Positions 6,907 through 24,974 of a DNA stretch of 40,285 nt are shown piece after piece; within the stretch, counting starts at the first letter, position 1, and the number at the start of each line of letters is the position of its first letter. Position numbers and translations under genes: made by a program. This stretch comes from Poseidonibacter ostreae (GTDB taxonomy: Bacteria > Campylobacterota > Campylobacteria > Campylobacterales > Arcobacteraceae): assembly GCF_009208075.1 (NCBI RefSeq), contig NZ_WFKJ01000027.1:1-40285 (forward strand), read 5' to 3'. The notes under the pieces were generated by a model. That model had not been told where the DNA came from and made no database searches. It saw nothing but the letters and a program-made list of their open reading frames with translations.

Positions 6907-8175
6907 TTGAAAAAGATATGTATAATAGGCCTAGGATATGTAGGTCTGCCACTAGCAGCAGCCTTTGCAAAAAAATATACTGTTGTTGGATTTGATATTA
7001 ATGAGCCAAGAGTAGAAGAGCTAAATAATGACTTTGATAGAACTTTAGAATTAAATAAAGAACAATTAGTTGAAGTAAAAGATTCTATTACTTATTCTTG
7101 TAACCTAGATGATATTAAAGATGCAAATATTTATATAGTAACAGTTCCTACTCCTATTGATTCTTCAAATAGACCAGATTTAACTCCTTTAGTAAAATCA
7201 TCTCAAATGATTGGACGTGTACTTAAACAAGATGATATTGTAATTTATGAAAGTACAGTATATCCTGGAGTTACAGAAGAAGTATGTGTACCACAACTAG
7301 AAGCTGCTTCAGGTATGACTTTTAATAAAGACTTCTTCTGTGGATATTCTCCTGAAAGAATTAACCCAGGTGATAAAGAGCATACAGTAACTAAAATTCT
7401 TAAAATTACAGCAGGTTCAAACCCAGAAATTGCTGATGAAGTAGATGAACTGTATAAATCAATTATAACAGCAGGTACTCATAAAGCAAGCTCAATAAAA
7501 GTAGCAGAAGCAGCAAAAGTAATAGAAAATACTCAAAGAGATGTAAATATTGCTCTTGTAAATGAATTAGCTTTAATATTTGATACTATGGGTATTGATA
7601 CAAATGATGTAATAGAAGCAGCAGCAACTAAATGGAACTTTATAAAATTAAAACCAGGATTAGTTGGTGGACATTGTATTGGCGTAGATCCATATTATCT
7701 TACATTTAAAGCAGAAGAACTAGGATATAAACCAAACCTAATTTTAGGTGCTAGACAAATCAATAATGGTATGGGTAAATATATAGCTGAAAAAACTATT
7801 AAAAAAATGATAAAAAATGATAAAAAGATAAAAGACTCAAATATCCTTGTGTTAGGTGTTACTTTTAAAGAAGATTGTCCTGATTTAAGAAATACAAAAG
7901 TAACTGATATTGTAGATGAATTACAAGAATATGGAGCAAATGTAGATATATACGATCCATGGGTTGACTTAGAAGAAACAAAAACTCATTTCAATCATGA
8001 ATTAATGGAAAGAAATCCTTTTGAATCTGATAAAAAATATGATTCAATAATTGTTGCAGTTGCACATGAACAATTTAAAAAATTAACAGAAGATGATTAT
8101 AAATCAATATCAACACAAAAAGAAATTTTAATAGATATTAAGGGTATTATTAAAAACCCTACATGGAGATTATAA
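6907..8175 (+). CDS. wbpA: UDP-N-acetyl-hexosamine 6-dehydrogenase (WbpA type)
   Basis: Oxidises C6 of a UDP-N-acetyl-hexosamine to the uronic acid with NAD+, in the cytoplasm. The 422-residue product has the N-terminal Rossmann motif GLGYVGLPLA, the STVYPG motif, and the catalytic cysteine in the GGHCIGVDPYY loop. The C-terminal UDP-binding domain contains LGVTFKEDCPDLRN. Related enzymes include WbpA, WbpO and TviB. The following wbpB, wbpD and wbpE homologues favour the WbpA role, on UDP-GlcNAc. It starts at TTG, supported by AAAGGA six bases upstream and by the N-terminal MKKICIIGLGYVG aligning with the family. It ends two bases before the next start. Confidence 0.9.
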   Translation: MKKICIIGLGYVGLPLAAAFAKKYTVVGFDINEPRVEELNNDFDRTLELNKEQLVEVKDSITYSCNLDDIKDANIYIVTVPTPIDSSNRPDLTPLVKSSQMIGRVLKQDDIVIYESTVYPGVTEEVCVPQLEAASGMTFNKDFFCGYSPERINPGDKEHTVTKILKITAGSNPEIADEVDELYKSIITAGTHKASSIKVAEAAKVIENTQRDVNIALVNELALIFDTMGIDTNDVIEAAATKWNFIKLKPGLVGGHCIGVDPYYLTFKAEELGYKPNLILGARQINNGMGKYIAEKTIKKMIKNDKKIKDSNILVLGVTFKEDCPDLRNTKVTDIVDELQEYGANVDIYDPWVDLEETKTHFNHELMERNPFESDKKYDSIIVAVAHEQFKKLTEDDYKSISTQKEILIDIKGIIKNPTWRL

Positions 8176-8176
8176 T

Positions 8177-9142
8177 ATGCCAAACATAAAAAGATTCGCT
8201 CTAATAGGTGCATCAGGATATATAGCACCAAGACATATGCAAGCAATAACTGAAACAGGAAATGAATTAGTAGCTGCATTAGATCCATATGATGGAATAG
8301 GAATAATGGATTCTCACTTTCCACAAGCATCTTTTTTTACAGAGTTTGAAAGATTTGATAGGTTTGTAGATAAATACCATAGAGAAAATGAAAAAAGAAT
8401 AGATTATATGGCAATTACAACTCCAAATTATTTGCATGATGCACATATTAGATTTGCATTAAAAAGTGGAGCTGATGCTATTTGTGAAAAACCATTAGTT
8501 TTAAATCCACATAATATTGATCAACTAAAAATTATTGAGCAAGAAACAGGTAAAAGAGTAAATAATATTTTACAATTAAGACTTCATCCTTCTATTATTG
8601 CATTAAAAGAAAAAGTTCAAAAAGAATTAATAGAAAATCCAAATAAAGTATATGATATTGATTTAACATATTTAACTTCAAGAGGTAAATGGTACTTTGT
8701 TTCTTGGAAAGGTGATGAAGCTAAATCTGGTGGAATTGCATCTAATATTGGAGTTCATTTTTATGACATGCTTTGCTGGATATTTGGTGAAGTTGAAGAG
8801 AATATTGTACATTTAAAAACTCCTGATGCAAATGCTGGTGGCTTTAAATTAAAACATGCAAATGTTAGATGGTTCTTATCTGTAAACTATGATTATATTC
8901 CTCAAGATGTAAGAGATGCTGGACAAACAACATTTAGATCTATTACTGTTGATGGAGATGAAATAGAGTTCTCAGGTGGATTTAAAGACCTGCATACAAG
9001 ATCTTATGAAGAAATCTTAGCTGGTAACGGATTTGGACTAGATGAAGCATATGGATCAATTAGAACAGTTGCAGCAATTAGAAACCAAGATGCTATTGGA
9101 TTAAAAGGTGAATACCACCCATTTTGTAAAAAGATAAAATAA
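8177..9142 (+). CDS. wbpB: UDP-GlcNAcA 3-dehydrogenase (WbpB/WlbA-like, Gfo/Idh/MocA family)
   Basis: Expected to oxidise C3 of UDP-GlcNAcA, giving the 3-keto sugar that WbpE then transaminates. The 321-residue product has the family N-terminus FALIGASGYIAPRHMQAI, the typical ALDPYDGIGIMDSHFP segment, and the catalytic CEKPLV motif. It is followed by GGIASNIGVHFYD in the substrate domain. The order wbpA-wbpB-wbpD-wbpE is the same as in Pseudomonas aeruginosa B-band O-antigen and related Bordetella loci. Its TAA overlaps the next ATG by one base, indicating translational coupling. Confidence 0.9.
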   Translation: MPNIKRFALIGASGYIAPRHMQAITETGNELVAALDPYDGIGIMDSHFPQASFFTEFERFDRFVDKYHRENEKRIDYMAITTPNYLHDAHIRFALKSGADAICEKPLVLNPHNIDQLKIIEQETGKRVNNILQLRLHPSIIALKEKVQKELIENPNKVYDIDLTYLTSRGKWYFVSWKGDEAKSGGIASNIGVHFYDMLCWIFGEVEENIVHLKTPDANAGGFKLKHANVRWFLSVNYDYIPQDVRDAGQTTFRSITVDGDEIEFSGGFKDLHTRSYEEILAGNGFGLDEAYGSIRTVAAIRNQDAIGLKGEYHPFCKKIK

Positions 9143-9723
9143 TGGCAAAGTTTTTTTATCATGAATCTTCTTTCATAGATGATAATGTAAATATTGGTGA
9201 TGATACTAAAATTTGGCATTTTTCCCATATCCTAAGTGGAACAACTATTGGTTCAAATTGCTCATTTGGACAAAACTGTGTAGTAGGTCCTAAAGTAAAT
9301 ATTGGAAATGGTGTAAAGGTTCAAAATAATATTTCAATCTATGAAGGTGTAGTTGTAGAAGATGATGTTTTTTTGGGACCTTCTATGGTTTTTACAAATG
9401 TAATAAATCCAAGATCTTTTATAGTTCGTAAAGAAGAGTTTAAAATTACTCTTCTTAAAAAAGGTTGTTCAATTGGTGCTAATGCAACTGTAGTATGTGG
9501 TAATACTATTGGGAAATATGCACTTGTAGGAGCTGGAACTGTAATTAATAAAGATGTAAAAGATTTTGCTCTAATGGTTGGAGTTCCTTGTAAACAAATT
9601 GGATGGGTTTCAATTGCTGGAAATAGATTAGTTTTTAATGATGAAAATATTGCAATAGATTCATTTGATAATTCTAAATATAAATTAGAAAATGATGTAG
9701 TAACTTTGATTGAGGAAAAATAA
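9142..9723 (+). CDS. wbpD: UDP-GlcNAc3NA 3-N-acetyltransferase (WbpD/WlbB-like)
   Basis: A left-handed beta-helix acyltransferase of 193 residues, with hexapeptide repeats such as VNIGDD, TTIGSN and VNIGNG running to about residue 150. The family signature GPSMVFTNVINPRS lies in the middle. It is expected to transfer an acetyl group from acetyl-CoA to the 3-amino group made by the next enzyme. The C-terminal VGVPCKQIGWVS is typical of WbpD/WlbB proteins. It overlaps wbpB by one base and is separated from wbpE by three. Similar folds use other acyl donors, so acetyl is inferred from the pathway. Confidence 0.88.
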   Translation: MAKFFYHESSFIDDNVNIGDDTKIWHFSHILSGTTIGSNCSFGQNCVVGPKVNIGNGVKVQNNISIYEGVVVEDDVFLGPSMVFTNVINPRSFIVRKEEFKITLLKKGCSIGANATVVCGNTIGKYALVGAGTVINKDVKDFALMVGVPCKQIGWVSIAGNRLVFNDENIAIDSFDNSKYKLENDVVTLIEEK

Positions 9724-9726
9724 AAT

Positions 9727-10872
9727 ATGAAAATAGATTTTGCAAACTTACAATACCAATATCAATTATATAAAACAGAAATTGATGAAGCGATTAGTGC
9801 TGTATTAAATAAATCAAATTATATAATGGGTGAAGAAGTAGCTACTTTAGAAAATTCACTTCAAGAATTTACTAAAGCAAAATATGCAATTACATGTAGT
9901 AATGGTACTGATGCTTTACTACTTGCTATGATGGCTTTGGATATTAAACCAGGTGATGAAATAATCACTACTCCTTTTACATTTATAGCAACAGCTGAAA
10001 CGATTGCATTTCTAGGAGCAACTCCAGTATTTGTAGATATAGATGAAAAGACTTATAATATTGATCCATCTTTAATTGAAGAAAAAATTACAGATAAAAC
10101 AAAAGCTATTATGCCAGTTAGTTTATATGGACAACCATCTGATATGGATGCAATTGCTTCTATTGCAGATAAACATAACTTAAAAGTAATTATAGATGGA
10201 GCTCAAAGCTTTGGATCAACTTTTAATGGACTAACAGATTCAAATTTAGGTGATATATCAACTACTTCATTCTTCCCTGCAAAACCATTAGGTTGCTTTG
10301 GCGATGGTGGAGCAGTTTTTACTAATAATGAAGAATTAGCATTAAAGATGAAATCATTAAGAGTTCATGGTCAATCAAAAAGATACCATCATAAATATAT
10401 AGGAATGGGTGGAAGACTCGATACTTTACAAGCAGCAGTATTAAATGTAAAAATAAAACACTATCCTAAAGATTTATCTTTAAGACAAGAAGTGGCTTCT
10501 AAATACACAAAAGCACTAGAAAATAAAACAAATTTAATACTTCCCTTTGTAGCTCCTTCTGCAACATCAGCATGGGCACAATATTCTGTTAGAGTTAAAA
10601 ATAGAGATGAAGTTCAAGCAAAATTAAAAGAGCAAGAAATTCCAACTGCTGTTCATTATCCTATGCCTTTGCATTTGCAAGAATGCTTTGAATACTTAGG
10701 ATATAAAAAAGGTGATTTTCCAGTATCTGAGATAGTTTCAGGTGAGATTATGTCTTTGCCTATGAATCCTTATATTACTAATGAAGAAATAGATTATATT
10801 TCTAAAAATGTAATAAGTACGGATAATATAAAATTAAAAAAAGGTAAAAGATGTCAGATGAAAATAAAATAG
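9727..10872 (+). CDS. wbpE: UDP-2-acetamido-3-keto sugar aminotransferase (WbpE/WlbC-like)
   Basis: A PLP-dependent DegT/DnrJ/EryC1 sugar aminotransferase of 381 residues. It puts a 3-amino group on the keto sugar made by the WbpB homologue, normally with glutamate as donor. Visible family features are SNGTDALLLAMMAL (phosphate contact), DGAQSFGS, and the PLP lysine in SFFPAKPLGCFGDGGA. YHHKYIGMGGRLDTLQAA is a close WbpE-like segment. Its last 22 bases overlap the next gene, a clear sign of coupled translation. Confidence 0.92.
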   Translation: MKIDFANLQYQYQLYKTEIDEAISAVLNKSNYIMGEEVATLENSLQEFTKAKYAITCSNGTDALLLAMMALDIKPGDEIITTPFTFIATAETIAFLGATPVFVDIDEKTYNIDPSLIEEKITDKTKAIMPVSLYGQPSDMDAIASIADKHNLKVIIDGAQSFGSTFNGLTDSNLGDISTTSFFPAKPLGCFGDGGAVFTNNEELALKMKSLRVHGQSKRYHHKYIGMGGRLDTLQAAVLNVKIKHYPKDLSLRQEVASKYTKALENKTNLILPFVAPSATSAWAQYSVRVKNRDEVQAKLKEQEIPTAVHYPMPLHLQECFEYLGYKKGDFPVSEIVSGEIMSLPMNPYITNEEIDYISKNVISTDNIKLKKGKRCQMKIK

Positions 10873-11711: not shown

Positions 11712-12981
11712 AAAATTAAATAATTGTTCTAGTTTTACTAAAAATGTTTTAACATTGATGACCGGAACAACAGTAGCTCAAGCAATACCTATTGCTATAA
11801 GTCCAATATTAACTAGGATATATACCCCTTCTGATTTTGGTCTTTTAGCTTTATTTATTGCAATAACTGCGATATTTGGAAATATCGCAAATGCTAAATA
11901 TGAATTAGCAATTATGTTACCTAAAAAAGATGAAGATGCTATAAATATTTTAGCTTTTAGTATGATCATTGCCATATGTATCTCTTTATTCTTATTAATT
12001 ATAGTATTCTTATTTAGTGGATATATTACAGAGCTATTAGGAAATAAAGATATAGAATTTTGGTTATATTTTATTCCCATAACTGTTTTATTTTTGGGCT
12101 TATTTAATTCTTTAAATTATTACAATATAAGGAAAAAATATTTTAAAGATATTGCAAAAGCTGTAATAATTAAATCTATTGTAATGGCTTCCTTCCAGCT
12201 TACGATTGGTTTTCTTGTTCAAGGAGTTGTAGGGCTAATATCGGGTGAAGTATTTTCGAAGTTATTTGCAAATCTTAAATTAGCTAGAAATATATTAAAA
12301 GATAAAGTAATTATTTCTAAAATCTCAAAGCCAAAAATGATTGCATTAGCTAAAAAATATAAAGGCTTTTTTTATTACAATACACCAGCATCATTGGTAG
12401 ATAGTGCTACCTTGCAGATGCCATTTATTTTTATTATAAAAATAGCAAATGAAGCTATAAGTGGATATTTTTTCTTAGCTTCAAAAATTGTAATGTTGCC
12501 AAGTGCATTGATTGGTAGTTCAATAGCTCAAGTCTTTTTTCAACAAACTACAGAACATATACATAATAAAGAATTAGTAGCTCCATTAGTATTTCAAACA
12601 ATGAAAAAGCTAGTTATAATAGCTTTACCTATTACAGTTTTAATAATATTGATTGGACCTCATATATTTGGAATAATTTTTGGTAAAAACTGGGGAGTTG
12701 TTGGTACTATAGCTCAGTATGTTGCATTGATCTTTTTTATAAGGTTTGTTGTTTCATCTGTTAGTCAGATATTATCAATTAAAGAGTATTTAAAAAGAGG
12801 ATCAATATGGAAATATATGTATTTTTTTACTAGTGTACAAATGTATACGTATGCAATATATGGAAATATGGATTTTTATGATTTTATGATTTTATTTGTT
12901 ATTCATGAATATGTTTTATATTTAATATATTTGTATTTAATATTAAAATCAGTAAGAGATATCGATAGTAGGATGAATTAA
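11704..12981 (+). CDS. wzx: Wzx-type polysaccharide flippase
   Basis: A polytopic membrane protein of 425 residues with about 12 hydrophobic segments. Its N-terminus, with TGTTVAQAIPIAISPILTRI then YTPSDFGLLALF, is characteristic of the MOP/RfbX exporter superfamily. It would move undecaprenyl-PP-linked repeat units across the inner membrane. It lies between the Wzz gene and asnB, and its TAA overlaps the asnB ATG by one base. It could also be a flippase for another lipid-linked glycan, but the locus argues for O-antigen or capsule. Confidence 0.88.
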   Translation: MIKKLNNCSSFTKNVLTLMTGTTVAQAIPIAISPILTRIYTPSDFGLLALFIAITAIFGNIANAKYELAIMLPKKDEDAINILAFSMIIAICISLFLLIIVFLFSGYITELLGNKDIEFWLYFIPITVLFLGLFNSLNYYNIRKKYFKDIAKAVIIKSIVMASFQLTIGFLVQGVVGLISGEVFSKLFANLKLARNILKDKVIISKISKPKMIALAKKYKGFFYYNTPASLVDSATLQMPFIFIIKIANEAISGYFFLASKIVMLPSALIGSSIAQVFFQQTTEHIHNKELVAPLVFQTMKKLVIIALPITVLIILIGPHIFGIIFGKNWGVVGTIAQYVALIFFIRFVVSSVSQILSIKEYLKRGSIWKYMYFFTSVQMYTYAIYGNMDFYDFMILFVIHEYVLYLIYLYLILKSVRDIDSRMN

Positions 12982-14789
12982 TGTGTGGTATAAGTGGAAT
13001 TATAAATACTAATAATAAAACAGTTGAAAAAATAGAAATTGAAAAAATAAATAGGCTAATATCTCATAGAGGTCCGGATGATGAGGGTTATTTTTATAGA
13101 GATAATTTTGCATTTGGTCATAGACGATTATCTATTTTAGATTTATCAAGTGACGGTCATCAACCGATGAATTATAAGGATGAAAAGTACACAATTACTT
13201 ATAATGGGGAAATATATAACTATATAGAATTAAAAAACGAATTATCAGAATTGGGTTATAATTTTAATTCAAATACTGACACTGAGGTGATTTTAGCTTC
13301 ATATGATAAATGGGGCGATGATTGTGTTTCAAAGTTTAATGGGATGTGGGCATTCTCGATTTATGATAGAGAAAAAGAGATACTTTTTTGTAGTAGAGAT
13401 AGATTTGGTATAAAACCATTTTATTACGCTGAAGTAGAAAATAAATTTGTTTTTGGTTCAGAGATTAAACAATTATTGCCTTTTTATGAGAGTAATTATG
13501 TAAATAAAACTATTTTGATGGATTATCTTATATTGGGATATGAAGCCCATACAAATGAAACATTTTTTAAGAATATATTTCAGTTAGAACAGGGGCATAT
13601 ATTAAAATACAATTTAAAAAATCATAGCTATGTTATTAATAGATTTTATGATATCAATGAATCTTCTTTAAATAGTGAAGAAGATGAATCAATTGAATCT
13701 TACAAGTCAGCACTTGAAAGAAGTATAAATCTAAGGCTTCGAAGTGATGTTAAGGTAGGAACTTGCCTTAGTGGAGGGCTAGATAGTTCATCAATAGCTT
13801 CTTTAGCTGCTAAACAATATAAAGATGACAGTGGGCAAAAATTTACTGCTATTCATGCTAAATCTTCTCAAAAGTCAAATGATGAAAGTGAATATGCAAA
13901 AATAGTAAGTGAACATTGTGATTTGGATTTAAATATTGTTGAACCTACAGAAGAGGATTTTATAAAACATATTGATGAAGTTATTTATACCCAAGAAGAA
14001 CCATTTGGAAGCCCTTCTATTTTTATGCAATATTTTGTAATGAAAAAAGCACGTGAAATTGGTTGTACTGTTATGCTTGATGGACAAGGTGGGGATGAGA
14101 CATTATTAGGTTATGAAAGATATTATTCTGCTTATTTAATTAGTTTAGGTTTTTGGAAATCTTTACAGTTTATACTTAATTCATCTAAAAACTCAAAACT
14201 ATCTATAAAACAATTAATAATGTATTTTATATATTTTACTAATAGTAAAATAAGATTGGGTCGTTTAAAGAAAAAAAATAGTTTTATCTCTTCAAAATAT
14301 TTCGATATGGTAAGTAAAGAAATTGTAGAAGAAAATGCTAAAAACTACTTAAAGATATTTAATCTTCAAAGAATGGAAATATTTAAGACACAGATGCCAC
14401 ATTTATTAAAATATGAAGATAGAAACTCGATGAAACATTCAATTGAGGCTAGATTACCATTTATTGATTATAATGTACTTGAGACAGCATTAAATATTGA
14501 TAATAACTTTAAAATTAAACAAGGGTGGACTAAATATATTTTAAGAAAAACTATTGAAAAGCTTCTACCTGATAATGTTGTATGGAGAAAAAATAAATGT
14601 GGTTTTGAGGCTCCCTCTTCTTTGTGGCTAAAAAGTATAGAAGCAGATATTGAAAAATCAATTTTTAATTCAAAAATAATAAAAGAGATAACAACTTCTA
14701 TTGATATAAAAAAACTCGATAATAAGACCCGTTGGAGATTATTTAATATATCAAAATGGGAAGCTCTTTATAATGTTAAAATTGATTAA
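12981..14789 (+). CDS. asnB: AsnB-type glutamine-dependent amidotransferase
   Basis: Contains the class II glutaminase domain with nucleophile Cys2 (MCGISGI), HRGPDDEG, the DLSSDGHQPM segment and the YNGEIYNY motif. The synthetase domain has the PP-loop SGGLDSSS at residue 264. The length of 602 matches asparagine synthetase B. In sugar loci, proteins of this kind (such as WbpS in P. aeruginosa) are thought to amidate the carboxyl of a uronic acid. The preceding WbpA homologue makes such an acid, so this role is favoured over free asparagine synthesis. That is an inference from position. It is coupled to the flippase gene by a one-base overlap. Confidence 0.9.
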   Translation: MCGISGIINTNNKTVEKIEIEKINRLISHRGPDDEGYFYRDNFAFGHRRLSILDLSSDGHQPMNYKDEKYTITYNGEIYNYIELKNELSELGYNFNSNTDTEVILASYDKWGDDCVSKFNGMWAFSIYDREKEILFCSRDRFGIKPFYYAEVENKFVFGSEIKQLLPFYESNYVNKTILMDYLILGYEAHTNETFFKNIFQLEQGHILKYNLKNHSYVINRFYDINESSLNSEEDESIESYKSALERSINLRLRSDVKVGTCLSGGLDSSSIASLAAKQYKDDSGQKFTAIHAKSSQKSNDESEYAKIVSEHCDLDLNIVEPTEEDFIKHIDEVIYTQEEPFGSPSIFMQYFVMKKAREIGCTVMLDGQGGDETLLGYERYYSAYLISLGFWKSLQFILNSSKNSKLSIKQLIMYFIYFTNSKIRLGRLKKKNSFISSKYFDMVSKEIVEENAKNYLKIFNLQRMEIFKTQMPHLLKYEDRNSMKHSIEARLPFIDYNVLETALNIDNNFKIKQGWTKYILRKTIEKLLPDNVVWRKNKCGFEAPSSLWLKSIEADIEKSIFNSKIIKEITTSIDIKKLDNKTRWRLFNISKWEALYNVKID

Positions 14790-16142: not shown

Positions 16143-17255
16143 GTGAGTATTAAAATAGCACATTTAACATCTGCCCATACAAGATATGATATAAGAATAT
16201 TTATAAAAATGTGTGTTTCGTTGGCAAAAGACAAAAGATTTGATGTTAATCTAATTTCAGCTGATGGTTTAGGAAAAGATGTAAAAGAAAATGTAACAAT
16301 ACATGATGCTGGTGCAAAAAGTGGAAGTCGTATATCTCGTATGACTAAAACAGTTGATAATGTTTATAAAAAAGCATTGGAAATTGATTGTGATGTGTAT
16401 CATTTACATGATCCAGAACTTATACCAGTAGGACTAAAATTAAAGAAATTAGGTAAAAAAGTAATTTTTGATGCCCATGAAGATTTACCTAAGCAATTAA
16501 AAAGTAAGCCTTATTTAAATAAAACACTAAGATTTATATTATCAAACTTATTTTCTTTATATGAAAAATATTCTTGTAGGAAATTTGATTATATTGTAAC
16601 AGCTACACCAAATATTAGAGACAAATTTTTAAATATAAATAAAAATAGTATAGATATTAATAACTTCCCAATTTTAGGTGAATTGAGTATCTCCAATGAA
16701 TCTTATACTAAAAAAAATGAAGTGTGTTATGTGGGTGGAATCTCTGAAATAAGAGGAATAAAAGAAGTTATTAATGCATTGGAATATTTAGATGGAATAA
16801 AACTAAATCTTGTAGGAAAGTTTAATAATAAGACTTTAGAAGAAGAGGTTAAAACCTATCCTGGATGGAAAAAAGTTAATCATTTAGGATTCCTTGAAAG
16901 AGATGAAGTAGCGGATGTAATGGGTCGTTCAAAAGCAGGAATTGTTACTTTTCATCCTTTACCAAATCATGTTGATGCCCAACCAAATAAGATGTTCGAA
17001 TACATGAGTGCGAAACTACCAATAATAACTTCAAATTTTCCACTTTGGAGAGAGATTGTAGATGGTAATAGTTGTGGAACTTGTGTCGATCCTTTAGACT
17101 CTAAACAGATAGCTCAGGCTATTAAAGAGATAGTAGATAATGAATTAAAAGCAGATGAATTGGCAAAAAATGGTGAGAAAGCAGTATTAAGTAAATATAA
17201 TTGGGATATAGAAGAACAAAAATTATATAAGATATATGAGGATATTATAAAATGA
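16143..17255 (+). CDS. Family 4 glycosyltransferase (GT-B fold)
   Basis: A 370-residue cytoplasmic or membrane-associated glycosyltransferase. The N-terminal domain has HLHDPELIPVGLKL and VIFDAHEDLPKQL, and the C-terminal domain has the nucleotide-sugar region ending in KMFEYMSAKLPIITSNFP with the conserved glutamate. This subgroup is common in loci making ManNAc3NAcA-containing glycans, next to a WbpI-like epimerase as here, so transfer of that sugar is a plausible inference. It starts at GTG with AAGGA at 16132-16136. Its stop overlaps the epimerase start by four bases. Confidence 0.85.
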   Translation: MSIKIAHLTSAHTRYDIRIFIKMCVSLAKDKRFDVNLISADGLGKDVKENVTIHDAGAKSGSRISRMTKTVDNVYKKALEIDCDVYHLHDPELIPVGLKLKKLGKKVIFDAHEDLPKQLKSKPYLNKTLRFILSNLFSLYEKYSCRKFDYIVTATPNIRDKFLNINKNSIDINNFPILGELSISNESYTKKNEVCYVGGISEIRGIKEVINALEYLDGIKLNLVGKFNNKTLEEEVKTYPGWKKVNHLGFLERDEVADVMGRSKAGIVTFHPLPNHVDAQPNKMFEYMSAKLPIITSNFPLWREIVDGNSCGTCVDPLDSKQIAQAIKEIVDNELKADELAKNGEKAVLSKYNWDIEEQKLYKIYEDIIK

Positions 17256-18325
17256 TAAAAATTTTAACAATACTAGGTGCAAGACCACAGTTTATAAAAG
17301 CAGGATCAGTGAGTCGTGAGATAGCAAAACATAAAAATATAGAAGAGATTATAGTCCATACAGGACAACACTACGATGCAAATATGAGTGATATATTTTT
17401 TGAAGAGATGCAAATACCAAAACCAAACTACTTTTTAGGAATAGGTGGAAAATCTCATGGTGCTATGACTGGACAAATGATAGAAAAGATAGAAGAAGTT
17501 GCTTTGAAAGAAAAACCAGATTGGGTAATGGTATATGGCGATACTAATTCTACCCTTGCCGGAGCAATAGTAGCTTCAAAACTACATATAAAAATTGCAC
17601 ATATTGAAGCAGGTCTTAGAAGTTTTAATATGAAAATGCCAGAGGAAGTAAATAGAATACTTACTGATAGAGTTAGTCAAATATTATTTTGTCCTACTGA
17701 TGCAGCAGTTGAAAATTTACAGAATGAAGGTTATGAGAATCTTGATTGTAAAATAGTAAAATCAGGTGATGTTATGCAAGATGGTGCAATATTTTATAAA
17801 AAACTTGCAGTTAAACCATCATATGAAATAAAAGATGATTTTGTCTTATGTACTATACATAGGGCTGAAAATACTGATGATGAAATAAGATTAAAAAGTA
17901 TATTTGAATCACTAAATGAAATAGCAAGAGAGAAACAAGTTATCTTACCACTTCATCCTAGAACAAAAAAGATTTTAGAGAATTTGAAATTAAATATTCA
18001 GAATTTGACTATAATAGATCCTATTGGGTATTTACAAATGGTATGGCTAATAGATAATTGTAGTTTGGTAATGACAGATAGTGGAGGACTACAAAAAGAA
18101 GCATATTTCTTTGGAAAACAATGTATCACCCTAAGGGATGAGACAGAGTGGGTTGAACTAATAGAATGTGAAGCTAATGTTTTAGTAGGTGCAAATGGAA
18201 CAAAAATATTAGAAGCATATAAAAACAATAAAAAATCAAATACTAGTAATTATCAATCACTGAATCTATACGGTGGTGGAGAAGCTAGTAAATATATTAT
18301 TAAAGAGTTATTAAATGATAGATAA
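17252..18325 (+). CDS. wbpI: UDP-GlcNAc3NAcA 2-epimerase (WbpI-like; UDP-GlcNAc 2-epimerase family)
   Basis: A non-hydrolysing UDP-sugar 2-epimerase of 357 residues. It has GARPQFIKAG at the N-terminus, HTGQHYD, YGDTNSTLAGA, HIEAGLRSF, the PEEVNRILTD segment, HPRTKK, and TDSGGLQKEA near the C-terminus. The YFLGIGGKSHGAMTGQM stretch resembles WbpI rather than WecB. With WbpA, B, D and E upstream, the product would be UDP-ManNAc3NAcA. WecB activity (UDP-ManNAc) is the alternative. It overlaps the upstream glycosyltransferase by 4 bases and the downstream deacetylase by 11. Confidence 0.88.
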   Translation: MIKILTILGARPQFIKAGSVSREIAKHKNIEEIIVHTGQHYDANMSDIFFEEMQIPKPNYFLGIGGKSHGAMTGQMIEKIEEVALKEKPDWVMVYGDTNSTLAGAIVASKLHIKIAHIEAGLRSFNMKMPEEVNRILTDRVSQILFCPTDAAVENLQNEGYENLDCKIVKSGDVMQDGAIFYKKLAVKPSYEIKDDFVLCTIHRAENTDDEIRLKSIFESLNEIAREKQVILPLHPRTKKILENLKLNIQNLTIIDPIGYLQMVWLIDNCSLVMTDSGGLQKEAYFFGKQCITLRDETEWVELIECEANVLVGANGTKILEAYKNNKKSNTSNYQSLNLYGGGEASKYIIKELLNDR

Positions 18326-18953
18326 ATTCAAAACAGTATATGTTCTAGCTCCACATACAGATGATGGAGAATTAGGTGCAGGAGGAACAATAAGTAAACT
18401 TATAGAAAGTGGTGCAAATATATATTATTTTGCTTTTTCAACTGCTGAGACATCAGTCCCTGATGGATTTCCAAAAGATATACTTAAAACTGAAGTTATA
18501 AATGCAACTACTAGACTTGGAATAAAAAAAGAAAATGTTATAATTTATAATTATGAAGTAAGAAAACTAAACTATGCAAGACAAGAAATACTTGAAGATT
18601 TAATAAAACATAGAAGAGAATTAAAACCAGATTTAGTGCTTATGCCTTCATTAAATGATATTCATCAAGATCATAGTACTATTGCACAAGAAGGACTTCG
18701 TGCATTTAAGAATATGACAATATTAGGATATGAACTTATTTGGAATAATCTTACATTTAATACTACTTCTTTTGTTAAACTGGAAAAGAAGCACATACAG
18801 GCAAAATGTGATGCATTAAAAGAATATAAATCTCAAGGGAGTAGAGATTATATGAGTGAAAGTTTTATTTTTTCTTTAGCAAAAACAAGAGGTGTTCAGA
18901 TAGGAACAGATTATGCAGAAAGTTTTGAGGTTATTAGATGGGTAATGGAATAA
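18315..18953 (+). CDS. PIG-L / LmbE-family N-deacetylase
   Basis: A zinc-dependent de-N-acetylase of 212 residues. The metal and catalytic motif is PHTDDGELGAGGT near residues 13-25 (consensus PHPDDExLGxGG), with the distal HQDH near residue 118. Family members remove N-acetyl groups from GlcNAc-type sugars, as in GlcNAc-PI or bacillithiol precursors. In this locus it overlaps the epimerase (11 bases) and an acyltransferase (16 bases). This suggests that it frees an amino group on a nucleotide sugar or lipid-linked sugar, which the next enzyme then acylates. The substrate is not evident from the sequence. Confidence 0.85.
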   Translation: MIDKFKTVYVLAPHTDDGELGAGGTISKLIESGANIYYFAFSTAETSVPDGFPKDILKTEVINATTRLGIKKENVIIYNYEVRKLNYARQEILEDLIKHRRELKPDLVLMPSLNDIHQDHSTIAQEGLRAFKNMTILGYELIWNNLTFNTTSFVKLEKKHIQAKCDALKEYKSQGSRDYMSESFIFSLAKTRGVQIGTDYAESFEVIRWVME

Positions 18954-19849
18954 GTGCTCAAATTATAGCGGGTTATTTGCAAAAAGAATTACATGGAGAA
19001 GAGTTTTATATTACTAAAGTACTAGCTTTAAGTAATGTACAGGATTATTGTTTCACTTTTTCAAAGAATAATAATGTTAATATAGACAAAAAATGTCTAA
19101 TTCTGGTTCCTAATGATTTTAATAGTTCTAATAATTGTTCTTTTTCTTATATAAAATCTGATAATCCTAGATTAGATTTTGCTAAAGTCATTGATGATTT
19201 TTTTACAAAGAAAGTTTTTTCTGGAATTGCAGATATTGTTAAAATTGGAAAGAATACAATTATATCTGATAGTGTACAGATAAATGATTTCTGTTTTATT
19301 GGAGAGAATGTTAAAATTGGTAAAAATACAGTGATAAATAACAATGTTACGATTTATAATAATACTATTATTGGAGAGAATTGTTATATAAAGTCAGGAT
19401 CAGTTATTGGAGAAGATGGTTTTGGATTTGACTTTGAGGATGATGGAACACCAATTAGAATTCCTCATATTGGAAATGTAGAAATTGGTAATAATGTTGA
19501 AATCGGAGCAAAAAATACAATTGCTAGAGGAACGTTAGGCTCTACACAAATTAATGATAATGTAAAAATTGATGATCAGGTCCATATTGCACATAATTGT
19601 AAGATCGGAATGAATACAATTATTACAGCATGTGCAGAAATAAGTGGGTCTGTTACTATAGGAAAAAATTGTTGGATTGGTCCAAATTGTAGCATTATTC
19701 AGAAAGTTAAAATTGGAGATAATGTAATAATAGGCATTGGATCAGTTATTACAACTAATATTGAAGATAATAAAAAAATCATGGGGTTTGAAAGCTTAAA
19801 TTTGCGAAGTTTACTTAAAGTTAAAAAGAGAATAGATTATGGAAAGTGA
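18938..19849 (+). CDS. LpxD-like hexapeptide N-acyltransferase
   Basis: A 303-residue protein. Residues 1-100 resemble the uridine-binding N-terminal domain of LpxD; residues from about 105 to 270 form a left-handed beta-helix of hexapeptide repeats (VKIGKN, VTIGKN, VKIGDN). DDQVHIAHNCKIG contains the histidine that is catalytic in LpxD (IAHN), and PHIGNVEIGNNVEIGA is also LpxD-like. True LpxD makes lipid A and usually sits with lpxA/fabZ. Here the gene lies in a glycan locus, coupled to a deacetylase, so N-acylation of an O-antigen amino sugar is more likely. The acyl donor (acyl-ACP, acyl-CoA or other) is unknown. Confidence 0.8.
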   Translation: MGNGISAQIIAGYLQKELHGEEFYITKVLALSNVQDYCFTFSKNNNVNIDKKCLILVPNDFNSSNNCSFSYIKSDNPRLDFAKVIDDFFTKKVFSGIADIVKIGKNTIISDSVQINDFCFIGENVKIGKNTVINNNVTIYNNTIIGENCYIKSGSVIGEDGFGFDFEDDGTPIRIPHIGNVEIGNNVEIGAKNTIARGTLGSTQINDNVKIDDQVHIAHNCKIGMNTIITACAEISGSVTIGKNCWIGPNCSIIQKVKIGDNVIIGIGSVITTNIEDNKKIMGFESLNLRSLLKVKKRIDYGK

Positions 19850-21041
19850 AAAAACTATTTGTATTATAAATCATTATGCTTTCCCTTATGGATATGGTTT
19901 TCATACACGACAACATACTATAGCAAAAATCTTAAAGAATTTAGGACATAATGTAACTATTATTAGCTCTTCTTTTAATCATCTTAAAATAAAAGCAGTT
20001 GATATCGAGAATATATATAAAGAAGAAATTCATGATGATATTAAGTATATTTGGATTAAAACAAAAGAATATCAAGGTAATGGATTAGCAAGAATCAAAA
20101 ATTTATTTGAATTTTCCAAAAAATTAAATAAGATTTATAAAAAACTTAATATAACTCCTGATATAGTTTGGGTGTCCTCTCCTCAGCCTTTTAGTATATA
20201 TAATGGTATTAAGATGAAAGATTATTTCAAATGTAAGTTTGTATATGAAGAAAGAGACATCTGGCCACTAACTTTACAAATGTTAAATGGAATTAATAAG
20301 TATAATCCTTTGGTTTTAATTTTCCGATATCTACAACTTCAAGCATACAAAAAGAGTGATATTATAGTGTCACCTCTTGATAACCTAAAAGAGTTTGTAG
20401 AAAAAAGTGGATTTCCCAATAAAAAAGTCGAGTACCTTCCTCAACCTTTTGTTGAATTTGAAATAGAAGAATTTGATATAAACCTACCAAAAGACAAGTT
20501 TATTGTTGGATATCTTGGTAGCATTGGAGATTCTAACAGTGTCTTTAATCTAGTAAAAGCAGCAAATTTATTAAAAAAAAGAAATGATATTTATTTTGTT
20601 ATGGTTGGTGATGGTCCGCAATTAGATGAACTGAAAGAGTTCTCTAAAAATAATGATTTAACAAACATAGAATTTTTAGGAAAATTAGAAAAGAAAAAAG
20701 CAATGTATTTTCTATCTCAATGTAGTATTCTATATAAAGGTAATCCAGATATAGAATTATACAAATATGGTATAGGTTCTGTTAAACTTGTTGAATACCT
20801 ATGGTTTAATAAACCGATTATTAATGCAACAAATATAAAGAATGATTTGGTGTCATTATCAAATACTGGTTTAGTTATTGAATCTGAAGATTCAAATAAA
20901 TTAAAAAATTCTATTAAAAAACTAGCAGATGATAAAGAGTTATATCAAAAGTATTTAAACAATGGTAAAAAATTTGTTGAAGAAAAGTTCACAGAAAAAT
21001 GGATTCAAGAAAAATTATACAAAATTATGGAGGGTTTATGA
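19839..21041 (+). CDS. Family 4 glycosyltransferase (WbuB-like)
   Basis: A GT-B fold glycosyltransferase of 400 residues. The N-terminus has NHYAFPYGYGFHTRQHTIAK, matching the WbuB group that transfers amino sugars such as FucNAc to a lipid-linked acceptor. YEERDIWPLTLQML in the middle is also typical of that group. The donor-binding domain includes GYLGSIGDSNSVFNLV and the acidic site near KLVEYLWFNKPII. It overlaps the acyltransferase gene by 11 bases and the WbpL-like gene by 4. In many loci a WbuB-like enzyme adds the second sugar after the initiating transferase encoded next door. Confidence 0.85.
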   Translation: MESEKTICIINHYAFPYGYGFHTRQHTIAKILKNLGHNVTIISSSFNHLKIKAVDIENIYKEEIHDDIKYIWIKTKEYQGNGLARIKNLFEFSKKLNKIYKKLNITPDIVWVSSPQPFSIYNGIKMKDYFKCKFVYEERDIWPLTLQMLNGINKYNPLVLIFRYLQLQAYKKSDIIVSPLDNLKEFVEKSGFPNKKVEYLPQPFVEFEIEEFDINLPKDKFIVGYLGSIGDSNSVFNLVKAANLLKKRNDIYFVMVGDGPQLDELKEFSKNNDLTNIEFLGKLEKKKAMYFLSQCSILYKGNPDIELYKYGIGSVKLVEYLWFNKPIINATNIKNDLVSLSNTGLVIESEDSNKLKNSIKKLADDKELYQKYLNNGKKFVEEKFTEKWIQEKLYKIMEGL

Positions 21042-21997
21042 TTTATTTATTCTTATTAATTGCCTCATTTTTACTTACATATTTTATAAAAAATTATGCC
21101 ATTAAGAAATCATTAGTTGCAGTTATAAATGAAAGAAGTTCTCATACTACTCCTACTCCGCAGGGAGGTGGTATTGCCATTGCTACTACTTGGTTTGTTG
21201 GTTTGTTTTATTTGTATTTAACAAATGAAATAGAAGCAAATCTTTTTTATGCATTATTAGTTGGACTTGTTATTAGTATTGTCAGTTTTTTTGATGATAT
21301 CTATGAACTTAGTGCAAAGCTTAGACTTATTGTTCAATCAATGGTGGCAGTTGTTGGTATAGTTGCTATTGGTGGATGGAATAGTATTGATTTTGGTTTT
21401 TTTATTATTGAGAATCAGATTATTACAAATATATTTGCATTTTTTATGATAGTTTGGTTTATAAATCTTTATAATTTTTTAGATGGTATAAATGGCTACG
21501 CAGGAAGCGAAGCTGTATTCTTATCAATTGCTGGTTTTTTATTGTTTGGAGGAAGTCACTTTTTAGTTTTAGTTGTAGCTGTTCTTGGATTTTTATTTTG
21601 GAACTATGGAAATGCTAAGATATTTATGGGAGATGTTGGAAGTACACTTTTGGGTTATAATGTAGCTATTTTTACACTTTATTATGCGAATAAAGAATCA
21701 TTAAATCTTTGGATTTGGATGATATTATTTGGTATTTTTTTGTTTGATGCAACAATCACATTATTTAGAAGAAAGCTAAATAATGAAAATATAAGTAAAG
21801 CACATAAAAAACATGCTTATCAAAGATTAAATCAAAGTGGCTGGAGTCACTTTAAAGTTACAAATTTTGCTATTGGATTAAATATAGTTTTATTTTCTAT
21901 AGTTTATTTTATATCTAATATTTTCCTAGCTCTTTTAATTTCTCATATCTTATTGATATTAGTTTTGAAATTTGTAGAAAATAAAAAGAAGTTTTAG
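21038..21997 (+). CDS. Undecaprenyl-phosphate N-acetyl sugar-1-phosphate transferase (WbpL/WecA-like)
   Basis: Starts the glycan by moving a sugar-1-phosphate from a UDP-sugar to undecaprenyl phosphate in the inner membrane. The protein has 319 residues and about ten membrane helices. It contains FFDDIYELS, NLYNFLDGINGYAG, NAKIFMGDVGSTLLGY, and the loop HKKHAYQRLNQSGWSH, which resembles WbpL. I chose the ATG at 21038, not the upstream in-frame ATG at 20999. A strong GGAGG sits three bases before 21038, that start overlaps the previous stop by four bases, and the extra residues would precede the first helix without any family match. WbpL enzymes typically use FucNAc or QuiNAc donors. Confidence 0.9.
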   Translation: MIYLFLLIASFLLTYFIKNYAIKKSLVAVINERSSHTTPTPQGGGIAIATTWFVGLFYLYLTNEIEANLFYALLVGLVISIVSFFDDIYELSAKLRLIVQSMVAVVGIVAIGGWNSIDFGFFIIENQIITNIFAFFMIVWFINLYNFLDGINGYAGSEAVFLSIAGFLLFGGSHFLVLVVAVLGFLFWNYGNAKIFMGDVGSTLLGYNVAIFTLYYANKESLNLWIWMILFGIFLFDATITLFRRKLNNENISKAHKKHAYQRLNQSGWSHFKVTNFAIGLNIVLFSIVYFISNIFLALLISHILLILVLKFVENKKKF

Positions 21998-22077: not shown

Positions 22078-23850
22078 TTGCTGACAGCTTCTCCATTGAA
22101 AAGAATAATATTTTTTTTATTAAGCGATACTTTAATCTCACTTTTTACACTATATTTAGCATACAATCTTAGATTTAACTTTACTGTACCAACTGATTTT
22201 TTAGACAATTTTTTAAATATATTTTTTGTAATTTTAATTTTAAAGATTATAATATTTATATTTTTTAGACTCTATAGAACTGCTTGGAGATTTTTTTCTC
22301 TTCATGAAGTAAAGAAAATACTTTTAGCACATATTATTGTTTATAGTGTATTTACTATAATATTAATACTTTTTAGAGAGGATATGATGCCTTTTGCAAG
22401 AAGTATAATCGTAATAGATTTTATGCTTTCACTTGTATTTATAACACTTTTAAGACTTAGTAAAAGAATTATTTTAGAAAGTGGAAAAGAAAGTAATTAT
22501 AAGAACACTTTGATAATAGGTGCAAATAGTTCTATAAATAGACTTTTGAATGATAAAAAAAATATCGAATACACTCCAGTAGCAATAGTAGATAAAAGTA
22601 AAAACTTAATAAATACATATATTTTTAATCTAAAGATTTATTCATTTGATGATTTAGAGAAGGTTATATTAAATAAAAGTATTGAAGCTGCTATTATATC
22701 AAAAGAGTATCCTCAAGAAGAACTAATAAATATTTTTGAAGTATTAAATAAATCAGGTATAAAAGATATAAAAATAGTAAATACCTTATCTTCAAATCAA
22801 AGTACAAAAAAACAATTAAAAGATATTTCTGTTGAAGACTTATTAGCAAGGCACCCAAAAGATTTAGATACAAATAAAATCGAATCATTCATCAAAGATA
22901 AGGTTGTACTTATCACTGGTGCAGGAGGGAGTATTGGCTCTGAAATATCAAGGCAGTGTAAAAAGTTTGATGCTAAACAACTTATTCTTTTAGACCATAG
23001 TGAGTATAACTTATATCAAATATGTGAAGAATTATCTGATTTTGATGTAGTGCCTGTTATGCAAACAGTTAGAAAAATTGAGTATTTAGAGAGTACATTT
23101 ACTAAATATAAGCCAGATATTGTAATTCACGCAGCTGCTTATAAACATGTACCTTTAGTTGAAGATAATATATTAGAAGGTATTTCAAACAATATTATAG
23201 GAACAAAAAACTGTATTGATATGGCTATTAAACATAATGTTGAAAAATTTGTACTTATTTCAACAGATAAAGCAGTTCGTCCTACAAATGTAATGGGTAC
23301 TACAAAGCGTATTTGTGAGTTATATGCACAAAATGTTGACTCAAAAAATACTGAAATAGTTGCTGTTCGATTTGGGAATGTTTTAGGAAGTTCTGGTTCT
23401 GTTATTCCAAAGTTTAGATCACAAATCCAAAAGGGTGAAAACATCACTGTAACTCATCCTGATATTACAAGATACTTTATGTTAATTCCAGAAGCTTGTG
23501 AACTTGTACTTCAAGCAGGTGCAATTGCTAAAGGTGGAGAAATATTTATTCTTGATATGGGGGAGCCAATTAAAATAGTTGATTTAGCTAAAAAAATGAT
23601 TGATTTATCAGGCCGTGATAATATTGAAATAGAGTTTTGTGGCTTAAGACCTGGGGAAAAGTTATATGAAGAACTATTGATAAATGATAGTGATAAAAAA
23701 ACCCAATATGAGTCAATTACAGTAGCAAGTTCTACAAAGTTTAATATAGATGAATTAAATAAAAAGATTGAAGAACTTCTACTAAAAGATGATAAATTAA
23801 GTATTTTAAAAGAGATAGTACCTGAATTTAATCATAAAAAAAATAATTAA
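22078..23850 (+). CDS. wbpM: Membrane-bound UDP-GlcNAc 4,6-dehydratase (WbpM/PglF type)
   Basis: A two-part protein of 590 residues. The first 130 or so contain four membrane helices, and the middle holds a degenerate Rossmann segment. The C-terminal SDR dehydratase has TGAGGSIGSE from residue 280, HAAAYKHVPLVE, and M406-G-T-T-K410 in place of YxxxK. The Met is normal for this WbpM/PglF class. It converts UDP-GlcNAc to UDP-4-keto-6-deoxy-GlcNAc, the precursor of QuiNAc, FucNAc and diamino sugars. It closes the polysaccharide locus and has its own -10 box. It starts at TTG. PglF of the N-glycosylation pathway is the main alternative, but no other pgl gene is present here. Confidence 0.9.
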   Translation: MLTASPLKRIIFFLLSDTLISLFTLYLAYNLRFNFTVPTDFLDNFLNIFFVILILKIIIFIFFRLYRTAWRFFSLHEVKKILLAHIIVYSVFTIILILFREDMMPFARSIIVIDFMLSLVFITLLRLSKRIILESGKESNYKNTLIIGANSSINRLLNDKKNIEYTPVAIVDKSKNLINTYIFNLKIYSFDDLEKVILNKSIEAAIISKEYPQEELINIFEVLNKSGIKDIKIVNTLSSNQSTKKQLKDISVEDLLARHPKDLDTNKIESFIKDKVVLITGAGGSIGSEISRQCKKFDAKQLILLDHSEYNLYQICEELSDFDVVPVMQTVRKIEYLESTFTKYKPDIVIHAAAYKHVPLVEDNILEGISNNIIGTKNCIDMAIKHNVEKFVLISTDKAVRPTNVMGTTKRICELYAQNVDSKNTEIVAVRFGNVLGSSGSVIPKFRSQIQKGENITVTHPDITRYFMLIPEACELVLQAGAIAKGGEIFILDMGEPIKIVDLAKKMIDLSGRDNIEIEFCGLRPGEKLYEELLINDSDKKTQYESITVASSTKFNIDELNKKIEELLLKDDKLSILKEIVPEFNHKKNN

Positions 23851-23922
23851 CTTTATATTTTAATAAATTATTTTATTATTAATAGATAATCTTTTATGTT
23901 ATTAAAATATAAAGGACTTATC

Positions 23923-24321
23923 ATGAAAAAAATGAAAAAAGGTTTTTCTCTATTAGAGTTAATATTCGCTATTGTTGTTATTGGTATTATTGCATCTTTT
24001 GCAATACCAAAATATTTAGATACACGTGATTCTGCTTTAGTCTCTACTCTTAAAAGAGATATCTCAACTGCTATTACATCAATTCAAAGTTATCATTTAC
24101 AAAATGGAAGTATCAGTAAAATTTCTGATGCAGTTACTTTAAATACTACTAATTGGACGATTGAAGATTTGAAAATTACTTATAAAGACAATACAACAGA
24201 TTGTGCGATTATAGAAGTAAAAGAATCAAAGCTTAATCTTACTGTTTCTGCTGATGCTGGTGATATTTGTAAAAAACTAGATGAAGCTGGTATCAAAACT
24301 ACAAGTTATGATTTATTTTAA
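23923..24321 (+). CDS. Type IV pilin-like / pseudopilin protein
   Basis: A 132-residue protein with a class III leader. A short basic MKKMKKG precedes the prepilin peptidase site G|FSLLELIFAIVVIGIIASFA, with the conserved Glu at position 5 of the mature form, then a long hydrophobic helix and a small globular domain. Two cysteines near residues 97 and 117 could form a disulfide. I chose the ATG at 23923; an upstream in-frame ATG at 23896 would add nine residues that do not fit a prepilin leader, and AAAGGA stands just before 23923. It is alone, without secretion or pilus genes around it. It could belong to a type II secretion-like or competence apparatus encoded elsewhere. Confidence 0.85.
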   Translation: MKKMKKGFSLLELIFAIVVIGIIASFAIPKYLDTRDSALVSTLKRDISTAITSIQSYHLQNGSISKISDAVTLNTTNWTIEDLKITYKDNTTDCAIIEVKESKLNLTVSADAGDICKKLDEAGIKTTSYDLF

Positions 24322-24448: not shown

Positions 24449-24706
24449 ATGCAACCTATTTTGGCAAACTATACAGCAAGTATTTCTGAATTAAAAAAAT
24501 CACCTACTCAATTATTGAAAAATGCAGGAGATGAAGCTGTTGCAATACTTAATCACAATGTTGCTAGTGCTTACCTTGTTCCAAGTAGTTTATATGAAAA
24601 AATGATGGATGTAATGGATGATCATTATTTAAGTAAAACTGTTGATGAAAGATTAAAAGATAATGAAAAACCTATTAGAGTTGATATAGATGACCTACTT
24701 ACTTGA
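24449..24706 (+). CDS. Antitoxin, Phd/YefM-like (StbD type)
   Basis: An 85-residue protein with an N-terminal Phd/YefM DNA-binding and dimerisation region (YTASISELKKSPTQLLK, then AVAILNHNVASAYLVP) and an acidic C-terminal tail, which usually wraps the toxin. It should neutralise the RelE-like toxin whose gene overlaps it by 17 bases, and repress their common promoter through the repeats just upstream. The start codon is preceded by AAAAGGA. Confidence 0.85.
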   Translation: MQPILANYTASISELKKSPTQLLKNAGDEAVAILNHNVASAYLVPSSLYEKMMDVMDDHYLSKTVDERLKDNEKPIRVDIDDLLT

Positions 24707-24974
24707 TTTTCATCCTAAAGCTTTTAAAGAATGGAAAAAATTAAATAATTCTATAAAAGTTCAATTTCAAAAAAAACTAAAAGAAAGACTTACAAATCCG
24801 AGAATAATAAAAGATAAACTTAGCGGTTATGAAAATATGTATAAAATTAAACTAAAAAGTATTGGATACCGTCTAGCTTATGAAGTTAAAGATGATGAGA
24901 TTATAGTTTTTGTTATTAGTGTTGGAAGAAGAGAAAATGAAAAGGTTTATCATAATTTAGAAAGTAGAATATAA
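24690..24974 (+). CDS. RelE/ParE-family toxin (StbE type)
   Basis: A basic protein of 94 residues with the RelE-fold sequence LDFHPKAFKEWKKLNNSIK at the N-terminus, the strand YKIKLKSIGYRLAYEV in the middle and FVISVGRRENEKVY near the end. RelE-type members cleave mRNA at the ribosome; ParE-type members inhibit gyrase. The GRRENEKVY end is more like RelE/StbE. Overlap with the antitoxin gene secures coupled translation. It ends two bases before the convergent ligase gene. Confidence 0.85.
   Translation: MTYLLDFHPKAFKEWKKLNNSIKVQFQKKLKERLTNPRIIKDKLSGYENMYKIKLKSIGYRLAYEVKDDEIIVFVISVGRRENEKVYHNLESRI

Follow-up and report, generated by a model that had tools for sequence, protein, structure and literature searches.

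A PIG-L deacetylase and an LpxD-like acyltransferase as a probable N-acyl exchange module in a Wbp-type O-antigen locus of Poseidonibacter ostreae

Two overlapping genes in an O-antigen locus of Poseidonibacter ostreae, one for a deacetylase of the PIG-L/LmbE fold and one for an LpxD-like acyltransferase, very probably carry out an N-acyl exchange on a nucleotide amino sugar. Both lie in the window (the whole 40,285-nucleotide stretch of DNA analysed here) and, as a full explanation, we consider it probable that they form the N-acyl exchange module of a Wbp-type O-antigen pathway, as a variant of the Wbp/Vim pathway known from Porphyromonas gingivalis and Tannerella forsythia, whose enzymes are WbpA/B/E/D, VimE, VimA, WbpS and WbpI (PMC7468200). 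There, VimE strips the C-2 acetyl group of the Wbp product and VimA adds serine or glycine (PMC7468200). A preliminary description of the window had proposed the exchange and held that no such pathway had been described; because the Wbp/Vim pathway follows the same logic, the pair is a variant rather than a new kind of pathway, with PIG-L potentially in VimE's role and the LpxD relative in VimA's. The exchange reading itself gained support from comparative genomics: the partners are interchangeable, the deacetylase has apparently been replaced by a non-homologous protein in one locus, the pair lies within a wbp operon in one genome, and the deacetylase subfamily is found in a VimE-type operon in another. 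The PIG-L/LpxD-like enzyme pair turned up in none of the open-access papers searched (such an absence being weak evidence).

As first described, the pair sits in an O-antigen locus directly after a WbpI-like epimerase gene, which shares 11 bp with the deacetylase gene (Table 1). Homology and gene order identify WbpA, WbpB, WbpD and WbpE enzymes in this locus, with Wzz, Wzx and a candidate Wzy also encoded upstream of the pair, and the enzyme set is that for UDP-ManNAc3NAcA (pathway in PMC10622841), here with a possible uronamide step. The candidate for that step, an AsnB-like amidotransferase, scored 375 bits against TIGR03108, under the cut-off of 817. A GT4 gene, such as the one that follows the pair, often comes after the amine-modifying module in other PIG-L loci.

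Table 1. Coordinates of the gene pair, its junction and the surrounding O-antigen genes in the window
Feature	Position	Strand	Length	Basis
WbpA-like UDP-GlcNAc 6-dehydrogenase	6907..8175	+		Homology
WbpB-like 3-dehydrogenase (GFO/IDH/MocA)	8177..9142	+		Pfam; WbpB name from pathway context
WbpD-like 3-N-acetyltransferase (hexapeptide)	9142..9723	+		Homology; in an operon with the pair in locus L142
WbpE-like DegT aminotransferase	9727..10872	+		Homology; in an operon with the pair in locus L142
Asparagine-synthase-like (AsnB-like) amidotransferase, candidate WbpS-like uronamide former	12981..14789	+		TIGR01536, 480 bits
GT4 glycosyltransferase	16143..17255	+		Pfam/HMM
WbpI-type UDP-GlcNAc3NAcA 2-epimerase	17252..18325	+		384 bits to PDB 8sxv versus ~145 to WecB; TIGR00236
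PIG-L/LmbE-fold N-deacetylase, distinct HTDD subfamily	18315..18953	+	212 aa	PF02585; function proposed
Junction, likely translational coupling site	18926..18953	+		GAGGT and next-gene ATG within the deacetylase FEVIRW codons
LpxD-like hexapeptide N-acyltransferase	18938..19849	+	303 aa	LpxD-family HMM matches; function proposed
GT4 glycosyltransferase, candidate transferase of the modified sugar	19839..21041	+		HMM; position in other loci
WecA/WbpL-type initiating glycosyl-phosphate transferase	20999..21997	+		PF00953; TIGR02380, 76 bits, below cut-off
WbpM-like membrane UDP-GlcNAc 4,6-dehydratase	22078..23850	+		PF02719

The deacetylase belongs to the PIG-L/LmbE superfamily, combining a PF02585 match (66.2 bits; gathering score 28.2) with a His-Asp-His metal site and an Asp base; the metal-site and base residues align as H14, D16, D17 and H117/D119/H120, and the Zn-site pattern matches that of the superfamily (Table 1 of PMC4101496). 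Its AlphaFold2 model (pLDDT 95) found its best PDB matches in diacetylchitobiose deacetylase, BshB and MshB, and the motifs PHTDD, HQDH and WNN are invariant across the subfamily (68 of 68 aligned sequences). For the whole subfamily, the best NCBIfam match is the BshB1 model, with the window member far under the cut-off (TIGR04001; 62.8 versus 182.5 bits), and identity as the bacillithiol deacetylase BshB1 was rejected on this score and on the differing motif. The PIG-L deacetylases of the teicoplanin/A40926, mycothiol and bacillithiol pathways share the fold and the Zn site with the window enzyme, but they are not UDP-sugar O-antigen enzymes, their partners are unrelated, and their motif is presumably HPDD, as opposed to the invariant HTDD here. 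In the teicoplanin and MshC/BshC routes, the freed amine is later acylated or aminoacylated. We propose that the window enzyme removes an N-acetyl group, probably at C-2, from a UDP-amino sugar.

The acyltransferase stands close to LpxD, with 230.6 bits against PRK00892 (over the cut-off of 207) and 212.6 bits against the LpxD equivalog TIGR01853 (under the cut-off of 242.5). In a tree of 33 sequences, a single branch (SH-aLRT 99) splits 18 such paired proteins from 14 genuine LpxD proteins. The catalytic His239 is present in 18/18 paired proteins and 14/14 LpxD, and the window enzyme thus keeps the histidine noted at the outset (H219, equivalent to Escherichia coli H239). By comparison, the Gly-His at positions 275–276 occurs in all 14 LpxD proteins versus at most 1 of the 18 paired proteins; the window sequence reads Gln-Lys, with Lys at the LpxD His276 position. 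A separate, PF04613-positive lpxD lies on another contig of the genome, adjoining ilvB/ilvH-like genes, and so the refuting condition named in the preliminary description, that the acyltransferase complements lpxD and the genome has no other lpxD, does not hold. Identity as a genuine LpxD was rejected on these three grounds: an lpxD elsewhere, the clade split and the lost second-histidine motif. The uridine-binding domain reported earlier is retained as a fold and not as a sequence match: PF04613 was unmatched by the first 90 residues in Pfam, and in the AlphaFold2 monomer model (mean pLDDT 78, with a weak C-terminal third) residues 1–91 matched the MurE N-terminal domain (Z ~10.5, 2.5 Å), while the whole model matched LpxD (Z ~20, though with a large rmsd of ~12 Å). 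Because the model matches LpxD over its full length and MurE over residues 1–91, the uridine-domain fold is kept. We propose that the acyltransferase puts a new acyl group, possibly a 3-hydroxyacyl, on the freed amine. The pair would resemble LpxC/LpxD, as a deacetylase followed by an N-acyltransferase at C-2 of a UDP-sugar, with the LpxD fold, catalytic histidine and uridine domain; it differs in having a deacetylase of another family, in the loss of His276 and in the separate lpxD of the genome. If the window sugar is a 3-amino uronic acid, the substrate cannot be UDP-3-O-acyl-GlcN.

The open reading frames of the two genes (18315–18953 and 18938–19849) bear out the 16-bp overlap given earlier. 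The conserved C terminus of the PIG-L subfamily, FEVIRW, has codons that hold both GAGGT and the next gene's ATG, likely a built-in translational coupling site. In several loci, the gene that starts at this junction is LpxD-like, ATP-grasp, WbqC, AMP-ligase or formyltransferase, and such varied genes at one junction agree with the idea of cassettes swapped at a coupling site that stays the same.

The pairing of the two genes exceeds chance. Among 397 genomes of the phylum (an even sample), 7 have the PIG-L gene, 6 the acyltransferase gene and 5 both (hypergeometric p = 1.6 × 10−9, or 7 × 10−8 leaving out the window genome). WbpB was found in 6 of the 7 PIG-L genomes versus 114 of the 397 overall (p = 0.003); genome G303 has the pair and no WbpB match. 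Locus L142 (G411) has the order wbpA-wbpB-wbpD-PIG-L-LpxD-like-wbpE, with short gaps and some overlaps, and L143 (G340) the order EPI, PIG-L, a 385-aa protein, LpxD-like and AsnB, with WbpB 13 kb off. WbpD occurs together with the pair in L058, L142 and the window. Aliarcobacter vitoriensis CECT 9230 (L058/L065) has a pair closely related to that of the window. L097 combines WbpA/B/E with the pair, the acyltransferase gene coming after WbpE; with no WbpD nearby, the acyltransferase there could act at C-3.

One locus, L148 (G421), has no PIG-L gene and an acyltransferase 48% identical to that of the window, with which it also has AsnB, GTa and EPI in common. The upstream position is held by a 241-aa non-PIG-L protein with CE4-like motifs (HDVD, GHQIGLH and LTHP), no relevant Pfam match even at E 10 and none in NCBIfam; our motif-based guess is that it is a CE4 deacetylase replacing PIG-L. 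Downstream, a MaoC/PhaJ-like gene overlaps the acyltransferase gene. The whole forms one gene run (L148:8519–13209) for a WbmS-like deacetylase (PF22537), a formyltransferase, an ATP-grasp-like protein, the CE4-like protein, the LpxD-like enzyme and the MaoC protein. A second hydratase neighbour, in L066, is a PhaJ-like hydratase-2 with the SGDNNPVH motif, which scores 108 bits against an (R)-specific enoyl-CoA hydratase of known structure; its gene separates PIG-L from an acyltransferase that shares 64% identity with the window enzyme. L060 contains a MaoC-SDR fusion and an AMP-ligase in one locus. That two separate loci have a hydratase neighbour suggests that the donor carries an (R)-3-hydroxyacyl group. 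No close PhaJ/MaoC homologue was found in the window genome at E < 1 × 10−5, so that the 3-hydroxyacyl idea rests on relatives and any such donor in P. ostreae would come from elsewhere, for example from acyl-ACP.

Beyond the LpxD-like partner, a genome-wide scan recovered 70 PIG-L loci from Campylobacterota, Bacteroidota, Chlorobiota, Pseudomonadota, Cyanobacteriota, an archaeal MAG and others, and the subfamily also occurs in Pelagibacteraceae, SAR86 and Prochlorococcus. An amine-modifying module stands at +1 of PIG-L in 45 of the 65 loci counted (the counts being phylogenetically non-independent): ATP-grasp in 20, commonly with a HAD gene, hexapeptide proteins in 14 (11 of them LpxD-like) and WbqC in 7, besides a formyltransferase (L123) and a GNAT (L112); in L060 and L066, an AMP-ligase and a MaoC gene, respectively, occupy +1 and are followed by the LpxD-like gene. 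None of the 20 bacillithiol-type PIG-L controls has these partner types at +1; a Fisher test of partners against controls drew on 67 loci, and the count of 65 leaves its conclusion as it was. Placing the three main kinds of partner on the PIG-L tree takes at least nine changes, and subfamily members are 77–90% identical between loci that differ in their other sugar genes. By inference, WbqC and the partner ATP-grasp proteins would act on amines. Many ATP-grasp and WbqC loci are without WbpA/B in the DNA examined, and the deacetylase substrate may therefore be broader than the Wbp product. In six Bacteroidota loci (L105, L110, L113–L115 and L122), PIG-L and ATP-grasp genes lie between DNA polymerase III delta'-like and PSP1-like genes (named by eye), with no glycan locus evident around them.

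Set against the Wbp/Vim pathway, the window shares a WbpS-like amidotransferase and a WbpI-type epimerase, and a Wbp product would likewise lose an N-acetyl and gain a new N-acyl group. It differs in that the deacetylase is PIG-L and not the CE4 enzyme VimE, the acyltransferase is an LpxD relative and not VimA, the new group is probably acyl or hydroxyacyl and not serine or glycine, and the genes belong to the O-antigen locus of a bacterium related to Arcobacter. Among the window-locus proteins scanned, none matched VimE (NF053580) and none gave a FemAB-like match with NCBIfam, a set without a VimA model. The PIG-L subfamily even occurs within a VimE-type operon in Parabacteroides (L084, 4248–9602), in the order recA-like, a VimA-size gene without a model match, PIG-L, VimE (NF053580, 650 bits) and glycosyltransferase; this vim-type operon thus has two deacetylases. 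L084 ties the subfamily to the Wbp/Vim pathway; with VimE kept there, and a VimE-like gene (205 bits) present in L069, PIG-L does not always take the place of VimE.

A route in keeping with these observations would start from UDP-GlcNAc3NAcA made by WbpA/B/E/D, which the WbpI-type enzyme could epimerise. PIG-L would then hydrolyse one N-acetyl group, most probably the one at C-2 that derives from UDP-GlcNAc, and the LpxD-like enzyme, binding the UDP-sugar by its N-terminal uridine domain, would use H219 to transfer a new acyl group to the freed amine, in parallel to LpxD acting after LpxC. Amidation of C-6 may fall to the AsnB-like enzyme, and transfer of the finished sugar may fall to the GT4 encoded next, the most likely product being a 2-N-acyl (perhaps 3-hydroxyacyl), 3-N-acetyl hexuronate or hexuronamide. 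For the site of exchange, we lean slightly towards C-2 of a diacetamido uronic acid, because a different WbpD would suffice to alter the 3-N-acyl group; for VimE, the authors placed the change at C-2 because C-3 deacetylation would undo WbpD (PMC7468200). A UDP-amino sugar still appears to be the substrate, as first proposed, with UDP-GlcNAc less likely than a 2,3-diacetamido uronic acid. A 3-hydroxyacyl group is a tentative assignment, and it might be a short one of (R) configuration, for instance 3-hydroxybutyryl. In Acinetobacter capsules, QhbA-type transferases are predicted to place 3-hydroxybutyryl on a UDP-amino sugar (PMC3628348), but these acylate a 4-amine made by an aminotransferase, and so no deacetylase is needed.

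Exchange could instead take place on another sugar of the repeat unit (for example UDP-GlcNAc itself, a 6-deoxy sugar formed by way of WbpM or a HexNAc carried on undecaprenyl), a rather unlikely alternative that nevertheless draws on several of the comparisons above: the high PIG-L identity across loci with differing sugar genes, the lack of wbpA/B in most ATP-grasp and WbqC loci, the recurrence of the same GT4 type after the module and the WbpM- and WecA-like genes of the window. Against it, and in favour of a 2,3-diamino uronic acid, stand the pair within the wbp operon of L142, its place directly after WbpI in the window, the co-occurrence of wbpB in 6/7 genomes and the PIG-L gene within the VimE-type operon of L084.

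Two further readings would separate the functions of the paired enzymes. It is improbable that the deacetylase alone matters, leaving a free amine in the glycan while the acyltransferase acts on a different amino group, for example at C-3 as a WbpD-like enzyme: the gene order of L097 would suit this, yet WbpD accompanies the pair in three loci, the window among them, and the deacetylase has interchangeable amine-modifying partners. Least probable is a second lipid A acyltransferase beside an unrelated PIG-L gene; although the broad NCBI LpxD subfamily model scores over its cut-off, the genome has its own lpxD by ilvBH-like genes, a branch with 99 support sets the paired clade, in which His276 is lost, apart from LpxD, and the acyltransferase co-occurs with PIG-L in 5 of 6 genomes.

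If N-acyl exchange by the pair is correct, N-acylated (perhaps 3-hydroxyacylated) diamino uronic acids are predicted in O-antigens annotated with a stray 'LpxD' and a 'PIG-L protein', and an HTDD PIG-L gene with a downstream partner would serve as a genomic marker for N-acyl exchange on surface sugars. It would also extend the Wbp/Vim logic to unrelated enzyme families, suggest the reuse of a lipid A-type enzyme for glycan diversity and give the uncharacterised WbqC family and some ATP-grasp ligases a testable role in amine modification on sugars. Found in many phyla with several kinds of amine-modifying partner, the deacetylase has the look of a plug-in unit by which bacteria vary their surface sugars. 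More speculatively, the HTDD subfamily might act as a general adaptor, exposing an amine on precursors of surface sugars, with partners (LpxD-like, ATP-grasp, WbqC or formyltransferase) swapped as cassettes behind a built-in ribosome site and start codon, yielding a family of undescribed 2-N-acyl sugars, some possibly protein-anchoring in sortase-like systems. In an Archaeoglobaceae MAG (L132:9998–11459), an archaeosortase C gene (TIGR03762, 157 bits versus a cut-off of 100) directly follows PIG-L, which fits such sugars as protein-anchoring groups.

Three other features of the window, all on the + strand, lie outside the O-antigen genes of Table 1. At 4755–6842, a DnaB replicative helicase carries a Hint/intein-like insert (PF05203, residues 205–417), a probable dnaB intein. 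Right after the O-antigen locus, 23896–24321 encodes a small protein whose N terminus has a methylation motif like that of type IV pilins (PF07963), and at 24449–24974, also downstream of the locus, a Phd/YefM antitoxin gene overlaps a RelE/StbE-type toxin gene.
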